IMG/VR virus record: IMGVR_UViG_3300009504_000328 | Coordinates: 1-22,238 of that record | DNA from: a virus | Length of the DNA stretch: 22,238 nucleotides | Direction: 5' to 3' (one strand) | Notes under the pieces: generated by a model | The model's database searches: none | What the model was told of the DNA's origin: nothing | The model's input: the letters and a program-made list of their open reading frames with translations, nothing else | In this document: positions 1,925 through 16,729 of the stretch, one piece after another | Position numbering within the stretch: position 1 is the stretch's first letter | Layout: every line of letters starts with the position of its first letter | Program-made: the position numbers and the translations under genes

Positions 1925-2289
1925 GACTATCGAGCAATTTCAATAGCAATGAGTTTAAGTGTAAATGTTGCGGTCAACTGCCAAACACTAAAGAATTCCA
2001 TGAAGAATTTATAGATAGACTACAGGCGGCACGGACAATCGCTGGAATACGATTTGACATAAATTCAGGCTATCGGTGCCAGAATCATAATCGCGCAGTT
2101 GGCGGCGCGGCTAATTCAGCACACTTGAAGGGTTTGGCGGCGGATATAGAAGCCAAGACTGACGAAAGCCGTTTTAAGATAATTGTGGCATTGCTATCGG
2201 CGGGTTTCACCCGCATTGGCATAGCAAAAACATATATCCATGCTGATATAGATGGTGATAAGAATCCGCAAAGGATGTGGTTGTATTGA
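1921..2289 (+). CDS. Endolysin, M15-type zinc peptidase (122 aa)
   Basis: Peptidoglycan-cleaving enzyme of the peptidase M15 group (D-Ala-D-Ala / L-Ala-D-Glu carboxypeptidase-like fold), which cuts peptide stems of the cell wall at lysis. Visible features: N-terminal SNFNSNEFKC, the SGYRCQNHNRAVGG segment (residues 49-62), the zinc motif SAHLKGLAAD with His68 and Asp75, and HADID with His107 as third zinc ligand. The length fits a stand-alone catalytic domain with no separate wall-binding module and no signal peptide, so release would depend on a holin. It overlaps the previous gene by ATGA and the next frame by TTGA. M15 proteins can also be structural tail lysins, but the neighbouring membrane gene favours a lysis role. 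Confidence 0.9.
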   Translation: MRLSSNFNSNEFKCKCCGQLPNTKEFHEEFIDRLQAARTIAGIRFDINSGYRCQNHNRAVGGAANSAHLKGLAADIEAKTDESRFKIIVALLSAGFTRIGIAKTYIHADIDGDKNPQRMWLY

Positions 2290-2450
2290 TTAAGACGGTT
2301 GTTAAATGGGTATTGCATAATCCGCAAACGATAGCGTTTATTATGACTTTTATTATCAAGACTATCAATGCGTTATCGGATAAGCGGCTGACTAAACATG
2401 AATTAGACGAGCTTAAACAAGATTTTGAGGATTATGTTGAGACGCTATGA
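2286..2450 (+). CDS. Candidate holin / small membrane protein (54 aa)
   Basis: A short frame starting with TTG at 2286, overlapping the endolysin stop as TTGA, with GGA of AAGGATG about 10 bases upstream. The product has one hydrophobic segment at about residues 5-30 (VVKWVLHNPQTIAFIMTFII) followed by a charged, probably helical tail (KHELDELKQDFEDYVETL). A one-helix protein with a charged C-terminus next to an endolysin is a common pattern for small holins or spanin-like lysis proteins. A later start at the ATG near 2337 is possible but would cut the membrane segment. Assignment rests on context and hydropathy only. Confidence 0.45.
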   Translation: MIKTVVKWVLHNPQTIAFIMTFIIKTINALSDKRLTKHELDELKQDFEDYVETL

Positions 2451-2527
2451 AAAAGAAGCGAAAAGCAAAAGTTAAGCAGAGAAAGCGTGAAAGAAGAAAG
2501 AAAAAAATGCCTGTACCAGATAATTAA
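2447..2527 (+). CDS. Lys/Arg-rich microprotein (26 aa), tentative
   Basis: ATG at 2447 overlaps the stop of the candidate holin gene as ATGA, so translation could be coupled. The frame ends with TAA at 2525. Of 26 residues, about 17 are Lys or Arg (MKKKRKAKVKQRKRERRKKK), followed by MPVPDN. Such a peptide could bind nucleic acid or membrane, but the low-complexity A/G-rich DNA here could also produce it by chance. It overlaps the 50-aa Cys-rich frame that starts at 2487, in a different frame; at least one of the two is likely real. Confidence 0.3.
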   Translation: MKKKRKAKVKQRKRERRKKKMPVPDN

Positions 2528-2639
2528 ATCTGAGCCGCCAAAGGAACATGGTAATTGCCGGATATGCAGAGCCGATGATAAAAACTCTCAATGCACAGGA
2601 TATAAGCCGGTTAAATGGATAGAATTTGAAGCGAAGTGA
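2487..2639 (+). CDS. Small Cys-rich protein (50 aa), putative zinc-binding
   Basis: A GTG-initiated frame running to TGA at 2637. The product has Cys at residues 8, 26, 29 and 38, with a clear CRIC (CxxC) and a further Cys nine residues on, and a C-terminal YKPVKWIEFEAK. The four-Cys pattern in a 50-residue product suggests a small zinc-binding knuckle. No ATG exists in the open stretch (2451-2636), so GTG 2487 is the best start; its Shine-Dalgarno is weak (AGAGAAAG). The next gene, for the small terminase subunit, begins 6 bases after the stop, which fits the packed operon. Unrecognised family. Confidence 0.5.
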   Translation: MKEERKKCLYQIIKSEPPKEHGNCRICRADDKNSQCTGYKPVKWIEFEAK

Positions 2640-2645
2640 GGAAAG

Positions 2646-3062
2646 ATGCCAAAAGGTGATAAATTAAATATAAGACAGGAGAGATTTATAAATAATCTGC
2701 TCAAGGGCATGACGCAGACTGCGGCATATATTGAAGCTGGATACTCAGCCAAAAATGCTATGTATCATGCTTCTCATTTAGCAAACAATAGCAAGATAAA
2801 GCCAGAAATCGAAAGACGTAAAAAGGAACAGGAAGACGAAAATAAATTTATTCTCTGGACAGCGCAAGAAGAATTGATACATGGATTATTACAGATAGCG
2901 CGCACAGCCGAAAGTGAAGCTGTTAGACTAGCGGCAATAAAAGATGGCTTAGATAGAACAGGCTTGAAACCTGTTGAGAAGCATGAGTATTCTGGCGAAA
3001 TGTCAATAGAGCATATCTGGAATAAGATTATTGGGACGGATGATGATGGCGATAGCGTATAA
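2646..3062 (+). CDS. terS: Terminase small subunit (138 aa)
   Basis: DNA-recognition subunit of the packaging motor. The N-terminal part (LNIRQERFINNLLKGMTQTA, then YIEAGYSAKNAMYHASHLANN) is the characteristic helix-turn-helix of the Terminase_2 / phage small-terminase family, where 'RQ-RFI-NLL-G-T-AAYI-AGYS' is the recurring pattern. A charged helical oligomerisation segment and an acidic C-terminus (GTDDDGDSV) follow. Length is typical. GAGG lies 4 bases before the ATG. The gene ends inside the start region of the large subunit (about 20 bases overlap), the standard terS-terL arrangement. Confidence 0.9.
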   Translation: MPKGDKLNIRQERFINNLLKGMTQTAAYIEAGYSAKNAMYHASHLANNSKIKPEIERRKKEQEDENKFILWTAQEELIHGLLQIARTAESEAVRLAAIKDGLDRTGLKPVEKHEYSGEMSIEHIWNKIIGTDDDGDSV

Positions 3063-4341
3063 AAGGTCATATTACGATAGGCTGAATAAGCCGGCATGGT
3101 TCAAGCTGACGGGCTATAAGCCTCATGATGGTCAGAATAAGGTGCATAATGATTCATCCAGATTCCGGGTGATGGTCGCTGGCAGGCGTTGGGGCAAGAC
3201 CGTTGCGGCGGCAAAGGAAGCGGAGTGCATGATAATGCTTCCCGGAACACGCGGATGGGTTGTCTCCAAGACTTACGATCTGACGATGAAGGTTATCAGG
3301 GAGATATACTCTGATATTGTCATCAAATTGCGTCAGAAGCCGACAATCAATAAGCTAGGCGGACCCGTTAAAATCGCCTTCCCATGGGGCTCGGTGGTAG
3401 AGGGTAAGACGGCGGAGCATCCTGAAAGCCTGCTTGGCGAGGGACTTGACTGGCTGATATTTGACGAGTGCGCGACATGCAAGCAATCGGTCTGGGAACA
3501 GTATCTGAGACCGACATTGAGCGATAGGCAGGGCTGGGCGTTATTCATCACAACGCCACGCGGGTATAACTGGGTATATGACATTTGGAAACGCGGGTAT
3601 GATTCGGATTATCCAGAATGGCAGAGCTTCAAGTCGCCTAGCTGGGATAATCCGTATCTCTCAAAAGACGACATCGCAGAGGCGAGGCATACGCTAACAT
3701 CCGCCACATTCATGCAGGAATATGGCGCGGATTTTACCTTAGCGTCAGGGCAGGTATATAACGAATTTGACGAGGTATATCATATATTGCCAGCGAATGA
3801 GATGGCAAAAATACTTGACCCAACGTGGCGGCGCTACCGGGCGATAGATTTCGGATATGAGAATCCGTTTGTGTGCCTGTATATCACAGTTGACCCTGAT
3901 GATAGACTTTATGTCTATAAGGAATATTATCAGCGACATAGAACAGTTGAGGCACATGCTAAAGCCTTGAATCAGGATGAGGGAAGATATGAGTATAGCG
4001 TCTGCGATCCTTCGGGGGCGTCTGCAAGGGCGACATTATTGGAGAACGGCATATCTACAATTGCCTTCCCATCGCTAGTCAATACAGGACTGGAGATGGT
4101 CAGACAGCAATTGAAAATCAGGGATGACGGCAAGCCGGGATTATATGTTAGTAGCGATTGCAAGAATGTAATCAAGGAATTTAGTCGTTATGTATATCCC
4201 GATACTGGCAAGGATGAGCCTGTGAAGGAATATGACCATTGCATGGACGCTCTGAGGTATTTCGTTTCTTATTGGAAGCGCGGGAGCGTTGTACATACTA
4301 TTTCGCGTAGGATGGGTTATGCGGATTTGGGGATACTATAA
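3043..4341 (+). CDS. terL: Terminase large subunit (about 432 aa)
   Basis: ATPase-nuclease that pumps and cuts DNA into the prohead. Visible in order: Walker A VAGRRWGKT (about residues 45-53), Walker B LIFDEC, coupling motif FITTPRG, and an RNase H-like nuclease with Asp in RAIDFGYENPF, Asp in VCDPSGAS and Asp in DHCMDALRYF. All key residues are present, so it should be active. Three consecutive ATG codons (3040, 3043, 3046) follow GGGACGG; 3043 or 3046 gives the best Shine-Dalgarno spacing, and a TTG at 3031 is less likely. The stop overlaps the portal start (TAATG). Confidence 0.95.
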   Translation: MMAIAYKRSYYDRLNKPAWFKLTGYKPHDGQNKVHNDSSRFRVMVAGRRWGKTVAAAKEAECMIMLPGTRGWVVSKTYDLTMKVIREIYSDIVIKLRQKPTINKLGGPVKIAFPWGSVVEGKTAEHPESLLGEGLDWLIFDECATCKQSVWEQYLRPTLSDRQGWALFITTPRGYNWVYDIWKRGYDSDYPEWQSFKSPSWDNPYLSKDDIAEARHTLTSATFMQEYGADFTLASGQVYNEFDEVYHILPANEMAKILDPTWRRYRAIDFGYENPFVCLYITVDPDDRLYVYKEYYQRHRTVEAHAKALNQDEGRYEYSVCDPSGASARATLLENGISTIAFPSLVNTGLEMVRQQLKIRDDGKPGLYVSSDCKNVIKEFSRYVYPDTGKDEPVKEYDHCMDALRYFVSYWKRGSVVHTISRRMGYADLGIL

Positions 4342-5774
4342 TGGCATTTGAAAAAGTAAAGCAATATATTATTAATAAGCTATCGGGAAGCAATACAAGC
4401 GGGACGGGCTATGTCAGACCAGTAGCGGAAGGGATGAAGGAATTTGATAAGGCGGCGATGCGATCTGATAGAGGCGGGAAAATACAGGATTGCACAGAGA
4501 TGGCAGAAGTCGACCCGCGTATTGCTAGGATGCTCAGGAAGCTCAAGTCTGACTCATGCGTTGGCGGGCTGGCAATACATATCGAGTCGGCGCCTGATGA
4601 GGCGACTGAACAGAAGGCGCAGGAGATAATTGACGATTTATTCAAGCGCTGCAAAATCCTTCGTCTCCTCAAGGGGTGGGTGAAGGCGTGCATAAGAGAC
4701 GGCGACTTGTTTCTGGAAGTGATTGTTGACGATAAGACGGGAGACATAGTAAGGCTAAAGAAGCTCGCGCCTAATATCACATGGTCAAGCGAGAATTCTG
4801 AGGGTAACTTTCCTGAAGATGAGCCTGCATATTATCAAGCGCATCCCTGGCAACCTGACGAAAAAATCAAGACATTCGAGAAGTGGCAAATCATACATAT
4901 CAAATGGGATGAGGAGGATGGCAAGCCTTATGGGACGGCGTTATTCGCGCCGGGTAGATTGACATGGAAGCGCGTTGATGGCGCCGAGAAGGCGATAGTA
5001 GCGCGCAGGCAGATAAACGGGATGAAGATCCATCACAAGATAGGCTCTCCTGAGCGACCTGACTGGGAACAGGTTAATAAATACAAGATTGAGAATCAGG
5101 ACACGATTGACCATCCGTTGGATCCTGTGGCGAATTATTTCACCACTGGGAACGTGGAGATAAAGGAAATTGCCGCTGACAAGACGATTGGCGATATGGA
5201 AGACGTCAAGCATCTTGAAGGGTTGTTATTTGCCCTAGCGGGCATACCGCCGGCGTTATTTGGCGGTGGGAACGAGAAAAACGTCAACCGTGACGTGCTT
5301 GATGAGATGGAAGAGGATTATTACCGCGTTCTTGAGGATATTGACGACTCATTCGAGGCGGCGTTTAGGGAGATAATTGATTTTGCTCTTTTGCTTAAGG
5401 AACTCAACCCTGATGCGCTTGAATATACGTTTAACTGGGGCGCGAAGGATAGAGACGATATTGAGTCTAAGATTACGCGTGGCGAACAGCTACAAAAGTT
5501 GGGCTTCTCGTTTGAGACGATATTTGCGACTTGCGATCTGGACGGCATCACATACGAAGACGAGATAGAACGCATCAAGAACCAAGTGGCTGAAGGGATT
5601 GTGCCTTATGGCATCGGGACGAAGCTGGATCCGATGATAGCGCAATTATTACTGGGCGTTGCATCGCAAAAGCCGGGAAACGAGGGCTTGACGGAAGAGA
5701 TAAGCAAGCTCAGGGAACTAGCTGAACGGCAGTTGGGACCTGGCGACGCGCCGTTGAAGGTTATAAAGAAATGA
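4341..5774 (+). CDS. Portal protein (477 aa)
   Basis: Dodecameric channel at the capsid vertex that docks the terminase and later the connector. The length and the order after terL fit, as do family-like segments: an N-terminal Asp-rich region (CTEMAEVDPRIARMLRKLKS), a WVKACIRDGDLFLEV strand-helix region, KWQIIHIKWDEEDGKPYGTA (typical of portals, where 'IIHI+ ... YG' recurs), and the LFALAGIPPALFGGG pore-loop-like segment. The C-terminal part is helical and charged. The ATG overlaps the terL stop by one base and the TGA overlaps the next gene as ATGA, indicating coupled translation. Confidence 0.92.
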   Translation: MAFEKVKQYIINKLSGSNTSGTGYVRPVAEGMKEFDKAAMRSDRGGKIQDCTEMAEVDPRIARMLRKLKSDSCVGGLAIHIESAPDEATEQKAQEIIDDLFKRCKILRLLKGWVKACIRDGDLFLEVIVDDKTGDIVRLKKLAPNITWSSENSEGNFPEDEPAYYQAHPWQPDEKIKTFEKWQIIHIKWDEEDGKPYGTALFAPGRLTWKRVDGAEKAIVARRQINGMKIHHKIGSPERPDWEQVNKYKIENQDTIDHPLDPVANYFTTGNVEIKEIAADKTIGDMEDVKHLEGLLFALAGIPPALFGGGNEKNVNRDVLDEMEEDYYRVLEDIDDSFEAAFREIIDFALLLKELNPDALEYTFNWGAKDRDDIESKITRGEQLQKLGFSFETIFATCDLDGITYEDEIERIKNQVAEGIVPYGIGTKLDPMIAQLLLGVASQKPGNEGLTEEISKLRELAERQLGPGDAPLKVIKK

Positions 5775-6865
5775 ACCTACAAGCATTTAATACTGCATTG
5801 ATTATATTGACTGAGCAGATGCTTCCAGACGAGAGCAGTATTGATAGGTATATCATGCCTATCGTCAGGTATATGGTTGACGAGTGGGCAAGGATAAAGA
5901 AAATCATTGCCGATACGATTATTGACGCCGGCAGGAAGCCGATTAGCGAGGCGATATTGAATGAGCGCGAGGTCTTCTTCCCTTCGGGCAGGCAAAACAT
6001 GGTCAAGCAGATGATAAACGCTTTGATTGGCTCTATGAGCCATGAAGTAGGCAAGCGAGTATCGGAAGCCAAACGGCAGGCAAAGATAGATTTCGCCATG
6101 CCGGGATTGACAGACCCGGACGTTGGTCCTATGAGGATTACATTGACACGCGAGGGCTTACAGGAAGTTATTGACGCTTTGGATTATCAGAAGGACTTTA
6201 TTGACGATTACAGGCAGACAACTGAGGAGCGCGTGATGCGGCTATTGCAGGCGCGTTATGGCTCGATAACCGACTTGAAAGATAACGTCTATCGAGAATT
6301 CAGGATTGACCGCGACCAGACGATGCGGCTGTTTCATCGCGAAGTCGAGGGATACGCCAAGAAGGTTATTGATGGGACGATGGATGTTGAGAGCTTTGTC
6401 AGCAACATGGAGTCGTCAATCGGCAAGTTTTACGAAAGGCTGTATCGCGAGGGCAAGAACGTAACGGATTTGGCTGACTGGGAGCGCGAGTTGATCAGGA
6501 AGCAGACGGAGAGCCAACGTCAATATCTGAATAATTTCGCTGATTATATCCGCACCAAGCAGGCGACTGGCAAGGAACTGACATCGTATATCGAGGCTAG
6601 AGCGGATTTATATGCCGAACGCGGGTCGGCAATGTTTGAGGCAGGTCAGGTGAACGCGTGGCCGGATGACGTATTAATTGACTGGGTGATGCAACCTGCG
6701 GAGCATTGCACTACATGCCCGATATATCAATCTAATTCTCCCTATACGAAAGAGACGTTGCCCGGCTATCCGGGCGAGGGCTTTCATCTTACGCAATGCG
6801 GGACGAACTGCAAATGTCTGCTTAGGGTTAGTGATTTGTATGTCGGCGAACTGAGAGGGATTTGA
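5771..6865 (+). CDS. Minor head / head morphogenesis protein (364 aa)
   Basis: Likely SPP1 gp7 / Mu F-like minor head protein, which binds the portal and takes part in head assembly. The N-terminal two thirds are predicted helical and charged. The C-terminal module is the diagnostic part: WVMQPAEHCTTCPIY, then a segment ending in LTQCGTNCKCLLRV, with Cys pairs matching the zinc-like cluster of Mu F-type proteins. Position directly after the portal (ATGA overlap) and before the protease/capsid gene supports this. Nothing is truncated. Confidence 0.85.
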   Translation: MNLQAFNTALIILTEQMLPDESSIDRYIMPIVRYMVDEWARIKKIIADTIIDAGRKPISEAILNEREVFFPSGRQNMVKQMINALIGSMSHEVGKRVSEAKRQAKIDFAMPGLTDPDVGPMRITLTREGLQEVIDALDYQKDFIDDYRQTTEERVMRLLQARYGSITDLKDNVYREFRIDRDQTMRLFHREVEGYAKKVIDGTMDVESFVSNMESSIGKFYERLYREGKNVTDLADWERELIRKQTESQRQYLNNFADYIRTKQATGKELTSYIEARADLYAERGSAMFEAGQVNAWPDDVLIDWVMQPAEHCTTCPIYQSNSPYTKETLPGYPGEGFHLTQCGTNCKCLLRVSDLYVGELRGI

Positions 6866-6866
6866 T

Positions 6867-9800
6867 ATGCCATACCCGAATCAACATGCGGCTCGGATTA
6901 GAGAGCCGGAGGGATTTATTAAGACGTCATTCATCACGAAGCAAATCGCTGCTGGGATCACGATAATCGCCGGCAAGCTGAAAAGCGGTGGGACGGCTCT
7001 TGTAACGCAGGCTTATAGATTCGCAAAGGACAAATATACCGCTTCGGCGGCAAAAGAGTGGATGAAACGGAATAAGATTAAGTATATCAAATTTGAGGAA
7101 GCTGAGGACACAAAAGACACAAACGAGGTGAACGATATGGCGAAAAAAGGCAAATTGGACAAAAATGAAATATATGCCACGATTCCAAATAGTATTGAAT
7201 CTATGTTAAACAAAATCAAAGACGCTATTGATAAAAATAATCCCTTTGGCATGTTGCGGGATAATGAATATGTAAGCGTTGAGGCTACTTTTGATGATTC
7301 TATAATAGTCTATAAATGGGGTGATGGAGAGCGCAAATATTATCAAGCTAAATGGAAGACAAATAAAGAAGGCGAGGTGGAGTTCTCAGATATAAAGCAA
7401 GTTGAAGTGAATGCGGTTATAAAAGTCAAAAATGAGATGCGCGAAAGAGCCGCTATGGTATCTTTGAATGAATCGGTTGATATGAATGAGACGATTGATA
7501 TTTCGTTCATATTAGAGAAGAAGGAAGAGGAAGCTGACGAATTAGAGAATTATTCTAGCAAGGCAATTTTCAAGCAAGAACATTCGGGTAATAATCGCGA
7601 ATATCCGCCGCAGGTAATGAAGGAGGCTATTGATGACGTAAAGAGCCGATTGCCGATTTTGATGGAGATACAGCATCCTAGAGATGGCAATATGGTGACG
7701 GATTTGGAGAAGACGGCGGCAATCATCAATAAAGTTGAACGCACCGATGACGGGCAGATAATACTTGAGGACATAAAGTTTGTGCCGACTGAGGCTGGTA
7801 AGACGATGTTTGGATTGTCTAAGACATTAGCGAAGTCGGGCGCAAAGTTAGGAATAAGTCAGAGGGCGACTGGTAAGTCGCATTATGTTAAAAACGAATC
7901 AACAGGGGCTGTCAAGGAAGTTGTTGACTGGCTACGAATCAAGAAATGGGACTTTACCGCTCCCAACGAACAGGGCGTTAAGGACGCACAATTTGAGCTA
8001 TTAATGGAGGAAAACGAGATGGCAGACAAAAAGGTATTGACCGAAGATGAAGTAACCGCGCTTTTGGGCGCGCAAAAGACTGAATTTATGACTATGATTG
8101 ATGAACTAAAAAATGCGCAAGCTGAACCGCCAAAGGTTGAAGAGCCGAAGGTTGAGCCAAAGCAGGAGAAGAAAGAAGAGTCAGATGGCAACAAGCTAAT
8201 CCTTGAGATGCAACAGAAGTTTAATGATGCAACAGAGAAGCTCAACCGTTTGACTCGTAAAGAGCAGATGACGGAACTCATCACAACTGGCACGAGGCTG
8301 ATGACTGAGGAACTAACGAAAGAGGATTATAAGCGATTCTCCGAAGCCGAAAAGAAGGTCTTGCTGGAGAGCGTAGATTTTGAGGTTGTATATCCGAAAG
8401 TTGATATGAGCAAGCCAGAAAGCATCACTGCTACGATTCTGGAATCGCTCAAAAACGAGATCAACCAGCTTGATAGGCTGATTGCGGCTTCTAAGCTCCG
8501 CGAGACGGGCTATCCGAAAAAGGGTACTGGCAACGGGATAACAAATGTCGAGGTGATAAATGAGAATGTTCCCGGCATGGAGCAAATCAAACGGCTAGAG
8601 AAAGACGTTGAACGCGCGATTGACCCGTACAATAAATACTGGAAACTCCCTGACGACCATCATGGACAGAGCGTTATCAATGAGATAATGAATAAGTATT
8701 ACAAGGACAATCATGAGAAGCTGATGCTGGAAGCAAACGAGGAATTCAAGCAGGATGATATAGGCGCGCGGATTGCGACAATCAACGCTGTTGTGATACC
8801 AGCGGCATTGAGACGATTGACGGCGATGAAGTTCTGCAATGTAGTGAACATGAAGGCATTGCTGGATTTTGTGCTGATAGAATCGTATGTGCCGACAATC
8901 GAGAGCAATGTTCATACCAATCTGGCATTATTCCAGCCAACTGAGGATGGGACGCTCACAATGGTTGGGTCAACCACCGTGGGCTATCCGATAGTTGCCA
9001 CTGAGAAAGGCTTCAGGACGATGATAACGACAAAGGCTATCGCTACAGCGAAAAATAGCGTTATTGATCCGGTGGTGATGTCAGTCGCGTCTATGGCGAA
9101 GCTAGGGGCGCAAATAACGGATCAGTACATATACGAATTTGTGATCGCTAGAACGCAGGGCTATGATGCTAGTGAGGTCTCGTCGTGGGAAACGCTGACT
9201 AAAGTAGGCGCTACGGCTGAATATCAGTCAGTCAATCAGGGCTGGATAAAGTATGAGCCATATAAGCATTATGACGGCAATGGCAACCCGGATGACGCGA
9301 AGCTCCTGAATCTGTTTGGCACGACATCGGGGAATGTATTGCAAAAGATTGAAATCGGTCATGGAGGTACTCCGACTGTGCTGACTTATGGGACGCATTA
9401 CACAATCAATTTTGCCGATGGGTCGGTGACATTGACCGCAGCGGGTGTTTCGGCTGTCTCAACTGACGATGTGAAGGCTAAATATTCATATACGAATAAC
9501 GCTAAATTCTGGAGCGTGACAGGCGGAGCGGGAACCGTGACGCTATATGACTGGCTCTTGAACTTGCAACAGATGATCGGGCAGGCAAAGGTATTGATTC
9601 GCAAGCGGCATTATGATCCAGATTTTGCCGTTGCGGGCATAACGGTTGAGGACTTGATTTCTAAGGGTCCGCAGTTTAACGCCTCGATGTCACAGCAAGG
9701 AAGCGTCAAGGACGCGTTGACTAATGTTATCACTTATGACGGCTTGCCGATGGACAGATCGGGCTGGGCGCCTGATCACTGGGTTATCGTTGGGGCTAAA

Positions 9801-9965
9801 GGCGCGGTAATCTTCGGCGTGCATACTCCGCCAATGGTTTCTGGACCTGTTGAAGACACAACGACTACGAGCAAGTATTACAAGTATAACGGCTTTACGG
9901 CTGTTGATGTGCCTGTGCCGGCGCAGTTCTCGCTGGTTGGCATCACAGATTTAGCGAGTTTATAA
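6867..9965 (+). CDS. Prohead protease-scaffold-major capsid fusion (1032 aa)
   Basis: One uninterrupted frame encodes what is usually two or three genes. Residues 1-90: an N-terminal domain (PYPNQHAARIREPEGF start) as seen ahead of phage proteases. 91-214: an unassigned insert. About 215-384: a T4 gp21-like serine protease with NNREYPP (242-248), catalytic His270 in EIQHPRDG and Ser331 in GISQRATG. 385-566: an acidic, Lys/Glu/Pro-rich then coiled-coil scaffold or delta region. About 567-1032: an HK97-type capsid protein with an inserted beta domain near 'THYTINFADGSVTL'. Strong internal ribosome-binding sites precede Met91 and Met385 in frame, so shorter products are likely. Candidate (L/I)XE cleavage motifs are LRE (544-546) and INE (564-566). 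Confidence 0.88.
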   Translation: MPYPNQHAARIREPEGFIKTSFITKQIAAGITIIAGKLKSGGTALVTQAYRFAKDKYTASAAKEWMKRNKIKYIKFEEAEDTKDTNEVNDMAKKGKLDKNEIYATIPNSIESMLNKIKDAIDKNNPFGMLRDNEYVSVEATFDDSIIVYKWGDGERKYYQAKWKTNKEGEVEFSDIKQVEVNAVIKVKNEMRERAAMVSLNESVDMNETIDISFILEKKEEEADELENYSSKAIFKQEHSGNNREYPPQVMKEAIDDVKSRLPILMEIQHPRDGNMVTDLEKTAAIINKVERTDDGQIILEDIKFVPTEAGKTMFGLSKTLAKSGAKLGISQRATGKSHYVKNESTGAVKEVVDWLRIKKWDFTAPNEQGVKDAQFELLMEENEMADKKVLTEDEVTALLGAQKTEFMTMIDELKNAQAEPPKVEEPKVEPKQEKKEESDGNKLILEMQQKFNDATEKLNRLTRKEQMTELITTGTRLMTEELTKEDYKRFSEAEKKVLLESVDFEVVYPKVDMSKPESITATILESLKNEINQLDRLIAASKLRETGYPKKGTGNGITNVEVINENVPGMEQIKRLEKDVERAIDPYNKYWKLPDDHHGQSVINEIMNKYYKDNHEKLMLEANEEFKQDDIGARIATINAVVIPAALRRLTAMKFCNVVNMKALLDFVLIESYVPTIESNVHTNLALFQPTEDGTLTMVGSTTVGYPIVATEKGFRTMITTKAIATAKNSVIDPVVMSVASMAKLGAQITDQYIYEFVIARTQGYDASEVSSWETLTKVGATAEYQSVNQGWIKYEPYKHYDGNGNPDDAKLLNLFGTTSGNVLQKIEIGHGGTPTVLTYGTHYTINFADGSVTLTAAGVSAVSTDDVKAKYSYTNNAKFWSVTGGAGTVTLYDWLLNLQQMIGQAKVLIRKRHYDPDFAVAGITVEDLISKGPQFNASMSQQGSVKDALTNVITYDGLPMDRSGWAPDHWVIVGAKGAVIFGVHTPPMVSGPVEDTTTTSKYYKYNGFTAVDVPVPAQFSLVGITDLASL
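7125..7139 (+). promoter_or_regulatory. Internal ribosome-binding site and start at Met91
   Basis: GAGGTG (7125-7130) lies 6 bases before an in-frame ATG (7137), at the junction between the N-terminal domain and the rest of the protease-capsid fusion. Initiation here would give a 942-residue product starting MAKKGKLDKNE. Confidence 0.5.
8006..8021 (+). promoter_or_regulatory. Internal ribosome-binding site and start at Met385
   Basis: GGAGG (8006-8010) is followed after 8 bases by an in-frame ATG (8019). It falls exactly between the protease domain and the scaffold region. Initiation gives a 648-residue scaffold-capsid protein (MADKKVLTEDEV) without protease, comparable in logic to the nested lambda C/Nu3 start. 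Confidence 0.7.
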
Positions 9966-9997
9966 TAGAATAGCGTAACTGTGTATATAACAATAAT

Positions 9998-10029
9998 CGC
10001 TAATGGGTGTAAATATACATCCATTAGCG
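9998..10029 (+). promoter_or_regulatory. 14-bp hairpin between capsid and next gene
   Basis: Bases 9998-10011 pair with 10016-10029 (CGCTAATGG/CCATTAGCG at the base, one G-T pair inside) around an AATA loop. The following TTCTTGG is not a good U-tract, so it is more likely a mild attenuator, RNA-processing or stability element than a full terminator. It lies just before the GGAGG of the next gene. Confidence 0.55.
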
Positions 10030-10047
10030 TTCTTGGAGGAAAGATAA

Positions 10048-11493
10048 ATGGCTAAGTTAAAGGATACAGTAGAATATCAGGACGCTATCGGTTCACGTGA
10101 CGATGCGGCATCCGCAGCCGCTGGGGCGTCATTGATTGCGTTACAGCGTCAAATTCTCGATACTGTCGGAGTATATGAAGGCGGGGCAGTAACGGCTATT
10201 CTAGGCGCGCTAAACGTTGCGGCGGCGACTGGCGCAGTTGGCACGAATAAGACGATGATGGCTTATCTGAAGCAGTTAGTCACCGAAGGCATCGCCAGAG
10301 ACGCGGTTATCGGCGCGAAGAATACCGCGGCGGCAACTGGCGCGATTAGCGATGAGAAGCTATTGATGGCTTATATCAAGCAAATTGTGACCGAAAGCAT
10401 CGCTAGGGATGGCGTTATTGGGTTAAAAGATACTGCCGCGGCAACCGGAGCGGTTACTGATGAAGACCTTATTATGGGCTATATCAAGCAATTAGTCACC
10501 GAAGGCATTGCCAGAGATGGCGTTATTGGGTTAAAAGACACTGCCGCGGCAACCGGGGCGATTAGCGATGAGAAGCTATTGATGGCTTATATCAAGCAAA
10601 TTGTGACTGAAGGAATCGCCAGGGACGCGGTGATTGGCTTGAAAGACACCGCCGCGGCAAGCGGCGCGGTTGGCGATGAAAAACTGTTGATGGCTTATGC
10701 TAAACAGCTAGTCACAGAAGGAATTGCTAGAGACGCGGTGGTAGGCGGCTTAACGGATGCGGCAAGCGATACCGTTGATGTGTCGACAATCGTGATGCTT
10801 TTGCGACAGATAGTCGAGGCGGTTAATAATGGCACAGGAGCGGCGATTGGAGAGAATTTATCGCTTGTTGACTTGTTAGGTGCGTTTGACGGTGGAGCCG
10901 ATCCACAGGGCGATATATTCCAAGCGCTTGGCGTTGACGAAAATAACTCAATAGTTGACTTATTAGGCGCGTTTGATGGCGACGCGGATCCACAGGGCGA
11001 CATCTTCCAAGCTCTTGGCGTGGATGAGAATAATTCAGTCAAGGATTTGATTGATATTGTTTTAGCGGCGCAACTGCCGAAGCTGGCAAAGAAAAAGGTT
11101 GATTATGACGGCTCGTCAGGGAACGGTCAGGCAGGCGTTGTTGTGCCTTTATTTACCGTAACCGGCGGCGTTAAGTTGAAGCTATACGCTATCTGTACGG
11201 ATGATTTAATAGAAGGCGAGGGTGATGGCACAACTGAGGTTGGCATAGTCGGGACAACCGATGCGCTGATAGCCACGACTACATCAGCCGCTATAGACGA
11301 GGGCGAGATATGGCATGACGCCTCTCCAGACGCTAAAGTGGAACTCGAATCTGTCGCGACAGAATATATACTTGGCGATGGGCAGAATGTTATCCAGACA
11401 ATTACTACCCGTAACATTACCGATGGGACGATAGAGTTTTGCGTTGAGTGGACGCCTTTGACGGCTGATGGCGATGTGACGCCTGTATCGTAA
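10048..11493 (+). CDS. Repeat-rich structural protein, putative capsid decoration/head fibre (481 aa)
   Basis: No enzyme motif. Residues 60-239 are five tandem 36-residue repeats with core MAYIKQLVTEGIARDAVIG and linker KDTAAATGA, likely helical. Residues 272-329 are two 29-residue repeats (LLGAFDGGADPQGD... ALGVDENN). The C-terminal domain (about 345-481) is beta-rich and clearly paralogous to the whole next gene, sharing EIWHDASPDA, CTDDL and a common strand order. ATG 10048 has GGAGG 8 bases upstream. Its place directly after the capsid gene and before the connectors suggests a virion surface protein; the shared C-terminal domain would be the capsid-binding or trimerising part. A fibre-like role is inferred, not shown. 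Confidence 0.7.
   Translation: MAKLKDTVEYQDAIGSRDDAASAAAGASLIALQRQILDTVGVYEGGAVTAILGALNVAAATGAVGTNKTMMAYLKQLVTEGIARDAVIGAKNTAAATGAISDEKLLMAYIKQIVTESIARDGVIGLKDTAAATGAVTDEDLIMGYIKQLVTEGIARDGVIGLKDTAAATGAISDEKLLMAYIKQIVTEGIARDAVIGLKDTAAASGAVGDEKLLMAYAKQLVTEGIARDAVVGGLTDAASDTVDVSTIVMLLRQIVEAVNNGTGAAIGENLSLVDLLGAFDGGADPQGDIFQALGVDENNSIVDLLGAFDGDADPQGDIFQALGVDENNSVKDLIDIVLAAQLPKLAKKKVDYDGSSGNGQAGVVVPLFTVTGGVKLKLYAICTDDLIEGEGDGTTEVGIVGTTDALIATTTSAAIDEGEIWHDASPDAKVELESVATEYILGDGQNVIQTITTRNITDGTIEFCVEWTPLTADGDVTPVS
10225..10764 (+). repeat. Five tandem 108-base coding repeats
   Basis: Each unit encodes 36 residues of the form ATGA[IV]xDEKLLMAYIKQ followed by [IL]VTE[GS]IARD[AG]VIGLKDTAA. Units 2-4 are the most alike, also at DNA level (shared ATTAGCGATGAGAAGCTATT). 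Expansion by unequal recombination or slippage is likely. Confidence 0.9.
10861..11034 (+). repeat. Two tandem 87-base coding repeats
   Basis: Units 10861-10947 and 10948-11034 each encode 29 residues beginning S[LI]VDLLGAFDG and ending ALGVDENN. They are nearly identical in protein and very similar in DNA. Confidence 0.88.
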
Positions 11494-11516
11494 CAATAAA
11501 GCGAGGTGTTAGCTAA

Positions 11517-11960
11517 ATGCAATTATTTGAGAAATTGGACGTTAGCAGTTATTTAGCTAAGAAGACAATTATCTTTGATGGCGATACAGGAAGCGGCGAG
11601 GTGGGCGCAGTTGACGTATTCAATATTACTGGCTTAGTCAAGGCGAGGTTTATTGCGCGCTGTACTGATGATTTAGTTTCGGATAACGACCCTGGAGGCG
11701 CGACGATCAGCATGGGCGTTAGCGGCAGTGAGACGGCATTTATCGCGTTGACAACTGCTGAGAATATTGATGAGGACGAGATATGGCATGACGCCTCTCC
11801 AGACGCTACTATTGAATTAGAGAGCGTTGCGCCATGGTATTTTATCAATGGCGAAGATGTGATATTAGACGTTGGGACGGATGATATTGTTGACGGCGCG
11901 ATAGAGATAATATGCGAGTATATACCGTTTTCGGATAACGCATCGGTAGCGATAGCGTGA
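11517..11960 (+). CDS. Putative capsid decoration protein, paralogue of upstream C-terminus (147 aa)
   Basis: A stand-alone copy of the C-terminal domain of the preceding protein: matching TGSGEVGAV / SGNGQAGVV, ARCTDDL / AICTDDL, DEDEIWHDASPDA / DEGEIWHDASPDA and ELESVA. The two genes share an identical 32-base stretch (11304-11335 and 11777-11808). Probably beta-rich and acidic; no enzyme motif or membrane segment. GAGGTG lies before ATG 11517, 23 bases after the previous stop. A small beta-rich protein here is likely a head decoration protein. A free domain plus a domain-tethered repeat fibre suggests the two may form mixed oligomers on the capsid. Confidence 0.68.
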   Translation: MQLFEKLDVSSYLAKKTIIFDGDTGSGEVGAVDVFNITGLVKARFIARCTDDLVSDNDPGGATISMGVSGSETAFIALTTAENIDEDEIWHDASPDATIELESVAPWYFINGEDVILDVGTDDIVDGAIEIICEYIPFSDNASVAIA

Positions 11961-11970
11961 AGGTGATAAT

Positions 11971-12645
11971 ATGTCTTCTTTAAGTAAAGCTGATTTTATT
12001 GATGAATTGCAAGCAAGGTTGGGCGTTAGCGTTATTGGCTCATACATAGATATTGCCTTGCGCGCTTATAGCATATCCTTTCCGAAGCGTAAAGTAAGCG
12101 CGGATAATGACATTGCCGATGGCTTGTATGACTATCCTGATGATGCTATCAGTATTATCAGGATAGTTGACAGCTATTCCCGGAAGGCGATAGAGTTCAC
12201 TATCGAGGATCAGGGCGAAGGCGATAAAATCCGCTTGGGACGCATAATGGAGCCGTCTTATGCCGCGCTTCTTGATACTGTGTATTATGATAATCCATTG
12301 GCTTTATCGGTTAGCAAGAGAACTACGTCTTATTCAAGGTTCGATATTGAGTATACGTTATTGCAAACGATGGCAACGATTGACGATATGGGCTTAGAGG
12401 CGATTGCCGATTATGTCGAGTATCTCGCCTTGAACAACAAGGCAAGCGCGGTATCGGTGGAAGCGGCAAATAGTTCTGAGCGCGTTGCGGAGAGCATAAC
12501 TGATCAGGATAGCACAGGGGCGTCAACGACTATCAAATATTCTTCGGCAAAGGAGACGTCTAATACTTTGAGACAGCAGGCAGATGAGGCGTTAAAGCGT
12601 TTTAAGGATGCGGCAAAATATGCCGCTTATGGGACGAGGAGCTAG
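11971..12645 (+). CDS. Putative head-tail connector/adaptor (224 aa)
   Basis: Located right after the head genes and before other connector genes. The N-terminus (SSLSKADFIDELQARLG) and the middle (DGLYDYPDDAISIIRIVDSYS, the YPDD strand turn) resemble phage adaptor proteins that bind the portal ring. A long helical, Ala- and Lys-rich C-terminus (LRQQADEALKRFKDAAKYAA) could insert along the portal. AAGGTG precedes the ATG. The gene has no catalytic motif. The role is inferred mainly from gene order. Confidence 0.6.
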   Translation: MSSLSKADFIDELQARLGVSVIGSYIDIALRAYSISFPKRKVSADNDIADGLYDYPDDAISIIRIVDSYSRKAIEFTIEDQGEGDKIRLGRIMEPSYAALLDTVYYDNPLALSVSKRTTSYSRFDIEYTLLQTMATIDDMGLEAIADYVEYLALNNKASAVSVEAANSSERVAESITDQDSTGASTTIKYSSAKETSNTLRQQADEALKRFKDAAKYAAYGTRS

Positions 12646-12648
12646 ATA

Positions 12649-13110
12649 ATGGGCGAACCTGAACCGGAACCAACGATTGAATATACATACTTATGGTGTA
12701 CTACAGCGGAGATACAAGCCTTCCTTGACGCCGAATCGGTCATCACTATCGGCAATGAGACGGGGACGTATTCGGAAGATGACGCTATGATTCTGGAGAA
12801 TGGGATCGTATATGAGATCGTATCGTATCTCAGTCCGTTTTTTGTGATCTCCGTAACGACTGTCAACCCACTGCTGGCGGCTATAGCCGCCAAGCTGACG
12901 GCGGCGCAGATCGGGCTGGCGCGTTTTGGCGCGTCAATGGGCAATGAGCCGGCTAATTGGACATACAGGCTCAAAAACGAGGCATGGGCGGCATTGCAGA
13001 GGATTGCCATACAGCAATCGCTACCTAATTTAGCGCCGAAGACTCTACCTTTAGAGCAGAGGCTTTTATTATCCAAGACACGTGAACGGACATTGATAGC
13101 GCAGGTGTAG
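12649..13110 (+). CDS. Putative head-tail connector, DUF1320/gp6-like (153 aa)
   Basis: A small, mostly helical protein: TTAEIQAFLDAESV near the start, then EDDAMILENGIVYEIVSYLSP, LLAAIAAKLTAAQIGLARFG, and a helical tail. The pattern 'YLxxxxxP(L/F)xxxxxxNPLLxxIAAxLTAAxI' is typical of the DUF1320 (Mu gp36-like) and related neck proteins. GAGGAG lies 8 bases before ATG 12649, overlapping the end of the preceding gene. It would sit between portal and tail in the neck. Confidence is limited because the family is defined mostly by helix pattern. Confidence 0.6.
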   Translation: MGEPEPEPTIEYTYLWCTTAEIQAFLDAESVITIGNETGTYSEDDAMILENGIVYEIVSYLSPFFVISVTTVNPLLAAIAAKLTAAQIGLARFGASMGNEPANWTYRLKNEAWAALQRIAIQQSLPNLAPKTLPLEQRLLLSKTRERTLIAQV

Positions 13111-14150: not shown

Positions 14151-14162
14151 GAGGAATTGACA

Positions 14163-15824
14163 ATGGCAACTAAAGGATATGCGAGTTATTTAATCGCAGG
14201 CAAGCAGACAAATTGGAATACGGTCATCAATAATGATGAATTCAACGGCATCATATATGAGTTCATGAGTTCTTCGCTCAAAAACAATTCAACGCCAATC
14301 ACGCCGACACGCTTCAAGGGCAATGCGAGTCCAATGCCACAGATTGAGAATTTCCTGAGCGCGGAGGGAGATATTCAGTTTAATCTCCATGCCGATAATA
14401 TGGTGATGTGGCTGGCACAGATGCTCATGGACGATATGAGCGATAACCCGGTTGTTGGCGACTGGACGGAAGTATTTGGCGATGGCATGGGCGAGGGCAA
14501 GGCATGGACATTTGACGAGGAGTTAGATGATCAGCCGGGCGATGTTGACCAAGAGCCCGGGAGGTTGCGCTTTACCTTTTCGGATGATGTGACGCTATCG
14601 GTGATTATCTTTGGCACAAACGCTAATGACAAGGCTATTATGGAGACATTGGTATTTGATGACGAGGATATTAAGACAACGATACAATACTTCAAGACTG
14701 TTAATGGCATGGACTTCAGCATCGAGCCGCCTGGCGATGAGACGGTCTTGATTGAATGTAGTAAGGAAAAGCCGGGCGATGTTGTTGAGCCTGAATGGCT
14801 AGAGGTATTTGGGAATACAGAAGGCGGCGGCAAAGCGTGGACAGATCCGGATAATCTCGATACACAGCCGGGGGCATTAACGCCAAGCCAGGCGCCAGCG
14901 TTGCTTAAATTCACCTTTGGCGCGAATGATACGATACAGGTGGATATAACAGGCACGGATCAGAATGATACGGTCATAGAAGAGACTCTAACATTTGCAA
15001 ACGAGACAACGAAGACAACGACAAAGTATTTCAAAACGGTAACGGAGATAGACTTCACAAACGAGGCAGGCGGCGGCGAGACGTTGTTTATCGAAGCCAG
15101 CAAGAACGTTTATATCCATACGATAGACTTAAAAGACGATATTCTTCCCGGTCTGACTATCGAGGAAGTCAAAGGCGCGTTACCATCAACTTATGTCGGC
15201 TGTTTGGTTAATCAGGGAACATTCGAGTTAGGCGATATAATCACAATGACGCTGGCATTGATGGCAAAGCGCGGCTGGAACAGCTACATTTGCAAGTCAA
15301 CAGGCAACGAAGTTGAAGTATCGGAGACGCCAACGGATGTTTCGTCATTCGATAGGGTATCGCAGGAGATTTTTCCGGCGTGGGGCATGGCATTAGAGAT
15401 CAACGGCGCGGGCAATCCAACGCCGATTGGCTCAATGACGCTAGTGATAAATAATCAGCTTGTCAATCCTTCGACACGCTTCCGTAACGATAGGACGCTC
15501 CCGAAGCCTGTCAGGAACGATAATCGCGATATCACATTGACATGCAATATTGATTACGATAGCGACAATAACGATTGGGACGAGAAGTTTGAGACGATGC
15601 AGGAAGCGTCTGCAATTTTGTATTGCTATCGTAAGCCTCATGCGGGACCTGAATTGAAGATAACCTTTACTCTCCCAAGATGTCAGATCGGCGCGTATCC
15701 CGATCCTGCGGTGACGGATTATGCGGAGGTATTGCAGGAGATTATTTTGCGTCCTATTCGCACCGAGAATGCGACTGATAGCGATGAGCTATCTATAACT
15801 GTCCAATGTTTAGCGGATGAATAA
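14163..15824 (+). CDS. Major tail tube protein with two inserted tandem domains (553 aa)
   Basis: Forms the tail tube. The ATG at 14163 has GGAGG (14150-14154) 8 bases upstream; an in-frame TTG at 14157 is less likely. N-terminal about 95 and C-terminal about 240 residues resemble tail tube proteins ('GYASYLIAGKQTNW', 'GDIQFNLHADNM', 'GMALEINGAGNPTPIGSMTL'). Between them lie two related domains, about 97-208 and 209-315, each starting W(T/L)EVFG, continuing through FTF, ETL, KYFKTV and ending ECSK/EASK. They look like Ig-like or carbohydrate-binding decorations on the tube surface. The total length is well above the usual 150-350 residues because of these inserts. No sheath gene is found, which fits a siphovirus. 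Confidence 0.75.
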   Translation: MATKGYASYLIAGKQTNWNTVINNDEFNGIIYEFMSSSLKNNSTPITPTRFKGNASPMPQIENFLSAEGDIQFNLHADNMVMWLAQMLMDDMSDNPVVGDWTEVFGDGMGEGKAWTFDEELDDQPGDVDQEPGRLRFTFSDDVTLSVIIFGTNANDKAIMETLVFDDEDIKTTIQYFKTVNGMDFSIEPPGDETVLIECSKEKPGDVVEPEWLEVFGNTEGGGKAWTDPDNLDTQPGALTPSQAPALLKFTFGANDTIQVDITGTDQNDTVIEETLTFANETTKTTTKYFKTVTEIDFTNEAGGGETLFIEASKNVYIHTIDLKDDILPGLTIEEVKGALPSTYVGCLVNQGTFELGDIITMTLALMAKRGWNSYICKSTGNEVEVSETPTDVSSFDRVSQEIFPAWGMALEINGAGNPTPIGSMTLVINNQLVNPSTRFRNDRTLPKPVRNDNRDITLTCNIDYDSDNNDWDEKFETMQEASAILYCYRKPHAGPELKITFTLPRCQIGAYPDPAVTDYAEVLQEIILRPIRTENATDSDELSITVQCLADE

Positions 15825-15890: not shown

Positions 15891-15927
15891 CCCCCTACAC
15901 TGAAAATGTCATAAAGGAGACTAATTG

Positions 15928-16581
15928 ATGAACGCTGGAGAAATAGCAAGCAAAAAAGCGAGCAGTAAGAACCTTTCGGCAAGTTCCACCAAACAACAAA
16001 GCACTAATAATATCGCTGGCTTGACGACTTATGACGATCTGATGTCAGAATATCAGACGGATATTGTTAAGACGCCATCGGGTTTGACTTTCATTATACA
16101 GACGATTAACCCTGGGGATTATTTGGCAATTATCGGCACGCCATTATTGAAATATATGTCCGCTCATGGCATTGACATAAGCGATCCGCAGGCGAGGACG
16201 CAGGCGGTGATGGATATGCCGGCAAACGAGCAGGTAGAAATCCTTTCAGATCCTAATTTTCAAGAGATGTTGAAGAGTATCGTCTGCGCGGGTATTGTGC
16301 CGCATGATAAGCTCAGGGTGGTTAATAAGAGAGCTTATGATTGCGATAAGAGCAAATATGAAGTATCAATAGACGTTATCCCCGTTGCGGATTTATACCA
16401 TATCTTCATAGAGATAATGAAGCTCAGTCAGGGGGAGGAATTCGCAGACGAAATAGAGCTTTTTCGTGAACAGCACGAAATCCGACCGGGTGAGGCAGTG
16501 GCTGATCCGGGTCCATCAGATGGGGAAAGCTTACAGCAGGAGACCGAGCCAGATATTGTTTCCTCGAATAGCGAATCCTAA
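15928..16581 (+). CDS. Tail assembly chaperone, short form (217 aa)
   Basis: Located between tail tube and tape measure, the fixed place of the lambda G/GT-type chaperone pair that coats the tape measure during tail assembly. ATG 15928 has AAAGGAGA 7 bases upstream; an in-frame TTG at 15925 is unlikely. The first 30 residues are Ser/Lys-rich and disordered; the core includes TPSGLTFIIQTINPGDYLAIIG and a helical C-terminal half ending YHIFIEIMKLSQG. From residue 180 on the frame turns into a low-complexity tail (PGPSDGESLQQETEP), as expected when the real continuation lies in another frame. The long form is described at 16466. Confidence 0.8.
   Translation: MNAGEIASKKASSKNLSASSTKQQSTNNIAGLTTYDDLMSEYQTDIVKTPSGLTFIIQTINPGDYLAIIGTPLLKYMSAHGIDISDPQARTQAVMDMPANEQVEILSDPNFQEMLKSIVCAGIVPHDKLRVVNKRAYDCDKSKYEVSIDVIPVADLYHIFIEIMKLSQGEEFADEIELFREQHEIRPGEAVADPGPSDGESLQQETEPDIVSSNSES
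16459..16467 (+). promoter_or_regulatory. Candidate +1 ribosomal frameshift site CUU_UUU_CGU
   Basis: In the chaperone frame the codons are CTT TTT CGT (16459-16467). Slipping from UUU to UUC by one base (Phe tRNA re-pairs) enters the second chaperone frame at GUG 16466. That frame is closed by TAG at 16454, so the site sits at the first possible position of the overlap. It matches the known UUU_CGU motif of influenza PA-X. Confidence 0.6.
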
Positions 16582-16729
16582 TATCCAGATGCTCATAGAC
16601 AATATGGTCTTTGAGCTAGGACGCAAGCAAGAGATTGAGGAAGAATCGGAATGGGAAAAGATGAAGATAGAGCATCAGCACAAGATGCTGGAGACGCTAA
16701 TTAATGTGCTTGTGAAGGTAGTTAGATGA
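16466..16729 (+). CDS. Tail assembly chaperone, frameshift extension (T-like, 87 aa)
   Basis: Frame +1 to the upstream chaperone and overlapping it by about 115 bases. It has no ribosome-binding site of its own, and the first in-frame GTG is exactly where the slip lands, so it is probably expressed only as a 266-residue fusion (179 residues plus 87). The segment RPSQILFP, preceded by GKAYSRR and followed by LIDNMVFELG, matches the recurrent 'RPSEIL...' part of tail chaperone extensions. The remainder is a charged helix with EEESEWEKMKIEHQHKMLET. The stop overlaps the next start as ATGA. The missing independent start and conserved position make the fusion reading strong. Confidence 0.72.
   Translation: MNSTKSDRVRQWLIRVHQMGKAYSRRPSQILFPRIANPNIQMLIDNMVFELGRKQEIEEESEWEKMKIEHQHKMLETLINVLVKVVR

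Follow-up and report, generated by a model that had tools for sequence, protein, structure and literature searches.

A probable nested scaffold-capsid gene within the fused T4-type head module of a tailed phage

Known arrangements of protease, scaffold and capsid genes

A basic question in the assembly of phage heads is what determines the proportion of protease to shell subunits. In bacteriophage T4 (genes 21-22-23) and in Salicola phage SCTP-2 (genes 93-94-95), the protease, the scaffold and the capsid part each have a gene of their own, with its own start and stop, and the protease and capsid families, as well as their order, are the same as those of the locus described here. In phage Mu, an in-frame internal start gives the scaffold (Z) separately from the protease-scaffold protein (I), and the lambda C/Nu3 genes are reportedly nested in the same manner, an in-frame internal start giving the scaffold apart from the protease-scaffold protein. 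When the protease and the shell protein are fused, however, separate genes can no longer adjust their proportion.

Such fusions are already present among deposited phages. Virus Rctr41k gp30 (KX853513, 871 aa), annotated as 'putative phage capsid protein and protease', carries an S77 protease, a scaffold and a capsid part in one frame, and the same three parts are found in Brevibacillus phage Emery gp6 (KC595516, 1006 aa), which is annotated as hypothetical; this phage apparently has no confirmed capsid protein (PMC4909266). CRP-831 and S-CBS1 also have protease, scaffold and capsid in one frame, although from other protease and capsid families (S78, PF05065), and NCBIfam holds a family named 'prohead protease/major capsid protein fusion protein' (NF045541). 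The protein studied here did not match NF045541, and that of CRP-831 reached 133 bits, below the curated cut-off of 525.

The fused frame and its genomic context

The window, that is, the whole 22,238-base virus contig analysed here, contains at 6867..9965 (+) one uninterrupted ORF of 1032 codons, running from ATG to TAA with no internal stop. According to the ORF and its relatives, the 1032-aa (115-kDa) product comprises an N-terminal domain, an S77 protease, a scaffold and a capsid part. The single frame described in the first-pass annotation was therefore confirmed, the more so as an identical ORF was found in a second IMG/VR contig, IMGVR_UViG_3300025135_000217, which is 100% identical to the window over positions 2155-12731. 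Since the two contigs possibly come from related samples, this identity argues against an assembly slip and not for an independent isolate. A frame of 1032 codons is not a product of chance, and dozens of divergent phages have the same three parts.

In single-sequence searches, the window protein alone gave no significant match in Pfam, PHROG, NCBIfam or PDB, so that relatives were needed, and these were reached via Rctr41k gp30 and Emery gp6. The former matched the window protein by BLASTP (4e-9), on the protease and, separately, on the capsid, with about 25% identity. One round of searching IMG/VR yielded 65 closed ORFs with an S77 protease and a capsid part, Rctr41k and Emery being counted among them; 50 remained at less than 90% mutual identity. 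These ORFs form three deep lineages, represented by the window, the Rctr41k-like and the Emery-like members.

The gene order of the head module is small terminase, large terminase, portal, one more gene, the fused ORF, a decoration-like gene, a connector and tail genes. The only match of the gene between portal and fused ORF was a PHROG of unknown function, and its position suggests a MuF-like protein. Near the contig edge, positions 37-681 encode the C-terminal part of a tyrosine integrase, because of which the phage may be temperate. The gene that follows the capsid ORF (10048-11960) is made of 108- and 87-base tandem repeats (KDTAAATGA..., VDLLGAFDG...), and the next ORF (11517-11960) repeats its C-terminal part; the product is possibly a head-fibre or decoration protein of variable length. 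Further downstream, a tail-tube-like protein (14157-15824) has an internally duplicated segment (VFGDGMGEGKAW... / VFGNTEGGGKAW...). Directly before the tape measure gene, the ORFs 15925-16581 and 16466-16729 (together 15925-16729) overlap in different frames, resembling the tail-assembly chaperone pairs made by frameshifting; no obvious classical slippery site was seen in this overlap.

The protease part

The protease domain (residues about 200-384; 7464..8018, +) was delimited by alignment, profiles and predicted structure. It had been proposed from the sequence that His270 and Ser331 are T4 gp21-like protease residues, and both were located as described: His270 (codon 7674..7676, +), within EIQHP, and Ser331 (codon 7857..7859, +), within GISQR, are invariant in the 43 aligned relatives, together with G241, N242, R244, Y246, P247, E267, P271, R333 and D362. 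Although the window member alone fell below the threshold of PF03420 (Peptidase_S77), this family was matched by 42 of the 43 aligned members, and the alignment profile matched the solved T4 gp21 structure (5jbl) at 1.1e-14. Structure prediction, suggested earlier for residues 215-384, was carried out on residues 91-384 (7137-8018; mean pLDDT 75) and returned the gp21 fold, 5jbl being the only convincing structural match of the model (Foldseek E 6e-6, probability 1.00; TM 0.68-0.71 by target length). Thus, by profile, catalytic residues and predicted fold, the protease is of the S77, T4 gp21 type.

Scaffold and candidate cleavage sites

Between the protease and the capsid part lies an acidic, scaffold-like (delta-like) region, recognised by this position (residues 385-566; 8019..8564, +). 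An LME site is present at the protease/scaffold junction, and near the scaffold/capsid junction the window holds two (L/I)xE candidates, INE (564-566; 8556..8564, +) and LRE (544-546), either of which could be the putative cleavage site. Of the Rctr41k-like relatives, 87% retain (L/I)xE at the corresponding scaffold/capsid junction, and no conserved (L/I)xE site was found at this junction in the Emery-like relatives.

The N-terminal domain and the outer starts

The first about 80 residues (6867..7112, +) form a domain named here 'MPYPNxHAAR', for which no significant match was obtained in Pfam, PHROGs or NCBIfam. The same domain occurs in S-CBS1/3 and CRP-821/822/823/831, there inside the capsid polyproteins, and N-terminally in the relative labelled L008; from these sequences, it is a domain that moves between S77 and S78 head polyproteins. 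The outer start is preceded by a Shine-Dalgarno (SD)-like GAGAGG (6853..6858, +; duplex -6.3 kcal/mol), and an internal GAGGTG with an in-frame ATG (M91, at 7137) follows at 7125..7139 (+; duplex -10.2). Many relatives have the start of their ORF at the M91 position (MAKK...). L008 shares the double internal-start arrangement of the window, its equivalent N-terminal-domain junction carrying AAGGAGG (-11.7). In the window, both internal starts, M91 and M385, have stronger duplexes than the outer start.

A conserved internal start at the protease/scaffold junction

The second internal start lies between protease and scaffold, where a GGAGG (8006..8010, +; duplex -9.3) stands 8 nt before the in-frame ATG of M385 and is conserved at this junction among relatives. 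In 48 of the 50 nonredundant fused ORFs, the duplex energy with the 16S tail at the junction was -8.5 kcal/mol or lower, versus 2.6% of 972 other in-frame ATGs. When the best start was taken per 90-codon window, the junction reached 96% and control windows 13%, the junction starts having mostly been chosen as the best in their window and the control windows handled alike. The signal is followed, a few bases downstream, by an in-frame ATG or GTG, and it was also observed in seven of eight prophage or MAG contigs. Among the S78 fusions, 11 of 15 nonredundant sequences carry it (73%), compared with 4% for control windows.

The peptides encoded at the junction vary widely (EENE|M, KEDDK|M, SSMEDD|M, QGDDE|M, RRGKK|M) and include basic ones. 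Each of the three codon phases is represented among the SD sites, and this is the pattern expected of selection on a nucleotide signal. For the window alone, the signal is unexceptional, M-E-E being encoded with a GGAGG in about half of cases (synonymous p 0.54), and synonymous shuffles within one ORF have too little power, six to seven codons deciding the outcome. Because acidic codons favour GGAGG, the family-wide synonymous-codon test was likewise modest (Fisher p 0.003, from sequences that are not independent). A GTG at residue 838 of the window has a stronger SD duplex (-10.7) than M385; this codon falls inside the capsid domain and was regarded as a chance match.

The signal has exceptions. 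No SD was found at the junction of the fusion in the Alicyclobacillus prophage L169, no well-spaced junction SD was found in S-CBS1 and S-CBS3, and L071 and L072 have a weaker junction site only. These exceptions indicate that the inner start is usual and not universal.

A nested gene or a single polyprotein

On these grounds, the locus is quite probably a nested gene in a fused T4-type head module (21-22-23) of a tailed phage, with at least two in-frame starts. Translation from 6867 (or 7137) would give a minor, full-length protease-scaffold-capsid protein (115 kDa from 6867), and the internal SD and ATG at 8019 would give, in excess, a scaffold-capsid protein of 648 aa (71.8 kDa; about 72 kDa), read from M385 to the shared stop (8019..9965, +). 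Both products would co-assemble into the procapsid via their shared scaffold and capsid parts, the long chain bringing the protease, and the tethered protease would then cut (L/I)xE sites, remove the scaffold and free itself, so that mature shell protein of some 50 kDa would remain. A nested scaffold-capsid gene allows shell subunits to outnumber proteases, and a conserved internal start would be a simple and directly testable answer to the question of their ratio.

The main alternative is that only the 1032-aa chain is made. Proteases and capsid subunits would then be equal in number, every part would be a cleavage product, and the SD would be a by-product of the acidic linker or of the cleavage-site peptide. 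The frame is indeed open throughout, the LME site lies at the protease/scaffold junction, GGAGG is favoured by acidic peptides such as M-E-E, and L169 has the fusion without the signal. However, the signal persists where the junction peptide is not acidic (GRRGKK in L017, GAEDIR in L031), in all three codon phases, and it recurs in S78 fusions whose junction peptides are unrelated. In addition, if a T=7-sized shell is assumed, about 415 copies of the 54-kDa internal part would amount to about 22 MDa, which would be near the physical limit. A chain of this kind as the only product is therefore considered unlikely. The first-pass annotation had described a 1032-residue precursor cleaving itself at sites such as INE; this site is present, and the picture of a single precursor is probably incomplete, given that a ribosome-binding site with its start codon is conserved where protease and scaffold meet.

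A wider form of the nested-gene reading, held with somewhat less assurance and still judged likely, is that S77 (gp23-like capsid) and S78 (HK97-like capsid) fusions as a rule either retain an internal ribosome-binding site or acquire one again, the inner scaffold-capsid protein being the major product and the full-length chain a minor subunit that carries the protease within that shell lattice; a third product would come from the further internal start of the window and L008. If this is true, dozens of ORFs labelled hypothetical or 'major capsid protein' carry the wrong primary start for their main product, and such mis-assigned starts would affect virion proteomics and work on capsid structures. 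No description of internal starts in protease-scaffold-capsid fusions was found in a search of the open-access literature; subscription papers may differ.

The capsid part

The major capsid part (residues 567-1032, 51 kDa; 8565..9962, +) was assigned by profile comparison. The C-terminal region of the window protein matched the Rctr41k-like capsid profile (pairwise P 1e-9, 131 columns), and this profile in turn matched gp23 (P 5e-5, 266 columns), with unrelated control profiles at P 0.04 or worse. As the window capsid itself gave no direct match to gp23 (P 0.03), the link is transitive, via the Rctr41k-like profile. The Pfam family Gp23 (PF07068) was matched directly by eight relatives (best 2.7e-8), some relatives matched other capsid families (Phage_capsid_4, Phage_cap_E and PHROG major head families), and no other capsid candidate was recognised within the window. 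A C-terminal part of T4 gp23 capsid type is thus supported by transitive evidence. The earlier proposal of protease, scaffold and capsid in one frame agrees with the sequence, the predicted protease structure and the relatives, the capsid being identified as gp23-type only transitively.

A small beta-rich insertion inside the capsid part (9366..9500, +), also present in relatives, resembles phrog_807 and NF052337, that is, the Ig-like region of tail tubes. These matches to tail-tube families could indicate that the C-terminal part, instead of being the shell protein, is an Ig-like-domain protein of the decoration or tail type. Nevertheless, the insertion accounts for only about 45-80 residues of a larger domain, the relatives' matches include Gp23, Phage_capsid_4, Phage_cap_E and PHROG major head families, and the ORF sits just downstream of the terminase and portal genes, all of which makes a decoration or tail protein very improbable.

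Distribution of the fusion

The first-pass annotation regarded a protease, scaffold and capsid in one frame as uncommon and recommended a search for the same fusion in related phages. The search succeeded, with the two deposited phages among the 65 ORFs, and the supposed rarity was not borne out, considering these ORFs, the plentiful S78-capsid fusions and the NCBIfam fusion family. The fusion was also found in MAGs or genomes labelled Anaerolineales, Clostridiales, Slackia and Alicyclobacillus, and independent fusions of an S78 protease with an HK97-type capsid are abundant, with 490 IMG/VR candidates around CRP-831. Profile comparison detected no kinship between gp23-like and S78-type capsids. 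From these findings, the fusion itself is a known, recurring arrangement.

An origin of the frame from separate genes joined by an assembly error or by loss of a stop codon, for which the same three parts as separate consecutive genes in Salicola phage SCTP-2 might speak, has a negligible probability, and assembly error was rejected, since the ORF is identical in the second contig and the fusion recurs in 65 related ORFs, including two deposited phages.

In a few relatives, frame changes split the fused frame, into two ORFs in L019 and L020 and into three in L011, which may reflect sequencing error, decay or frameshifting. In Microcystis phage vB_MaeS-yong1 (L081), an 848-aa 'Mu-like prophage I protein' (2408-4954) has a C-terminal part that matches the Emery capsid region, and this ORF is possibly a third, Mu-type protease-capsid fusion.

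Comparison with known systems

Among the deposited fusions, Rctr41k gp30 and its IMG/VR relatives share with the window an internal SD and ATG at the junction, although the Rctr41k ORF begins at MAKK, without the N-terminal MPYPN domain. Emery gp6 likewise has a junction SD, AAGGAGG, which stands 8 nt before the ATG of Met343, and differs from the window in its N-terminal region. CRP-831 resembles the window in carrying a domain of the N-terminal type and, at the junction, an internal start with an SD, whereas S-CBS1/3 are without a clear internal SD. Lambda C/Nu3 and Mu I/Z have in common with the proposed gene an in-frame internal start at the protease/scaffold boundary. However, their nested product is the scaffold only, while that of the window would also contain the capsid protein. 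By analogy with lambda C/Nu3, we infer that the gene is nested; it would differ from that pair in having the shell protein within the inner product.
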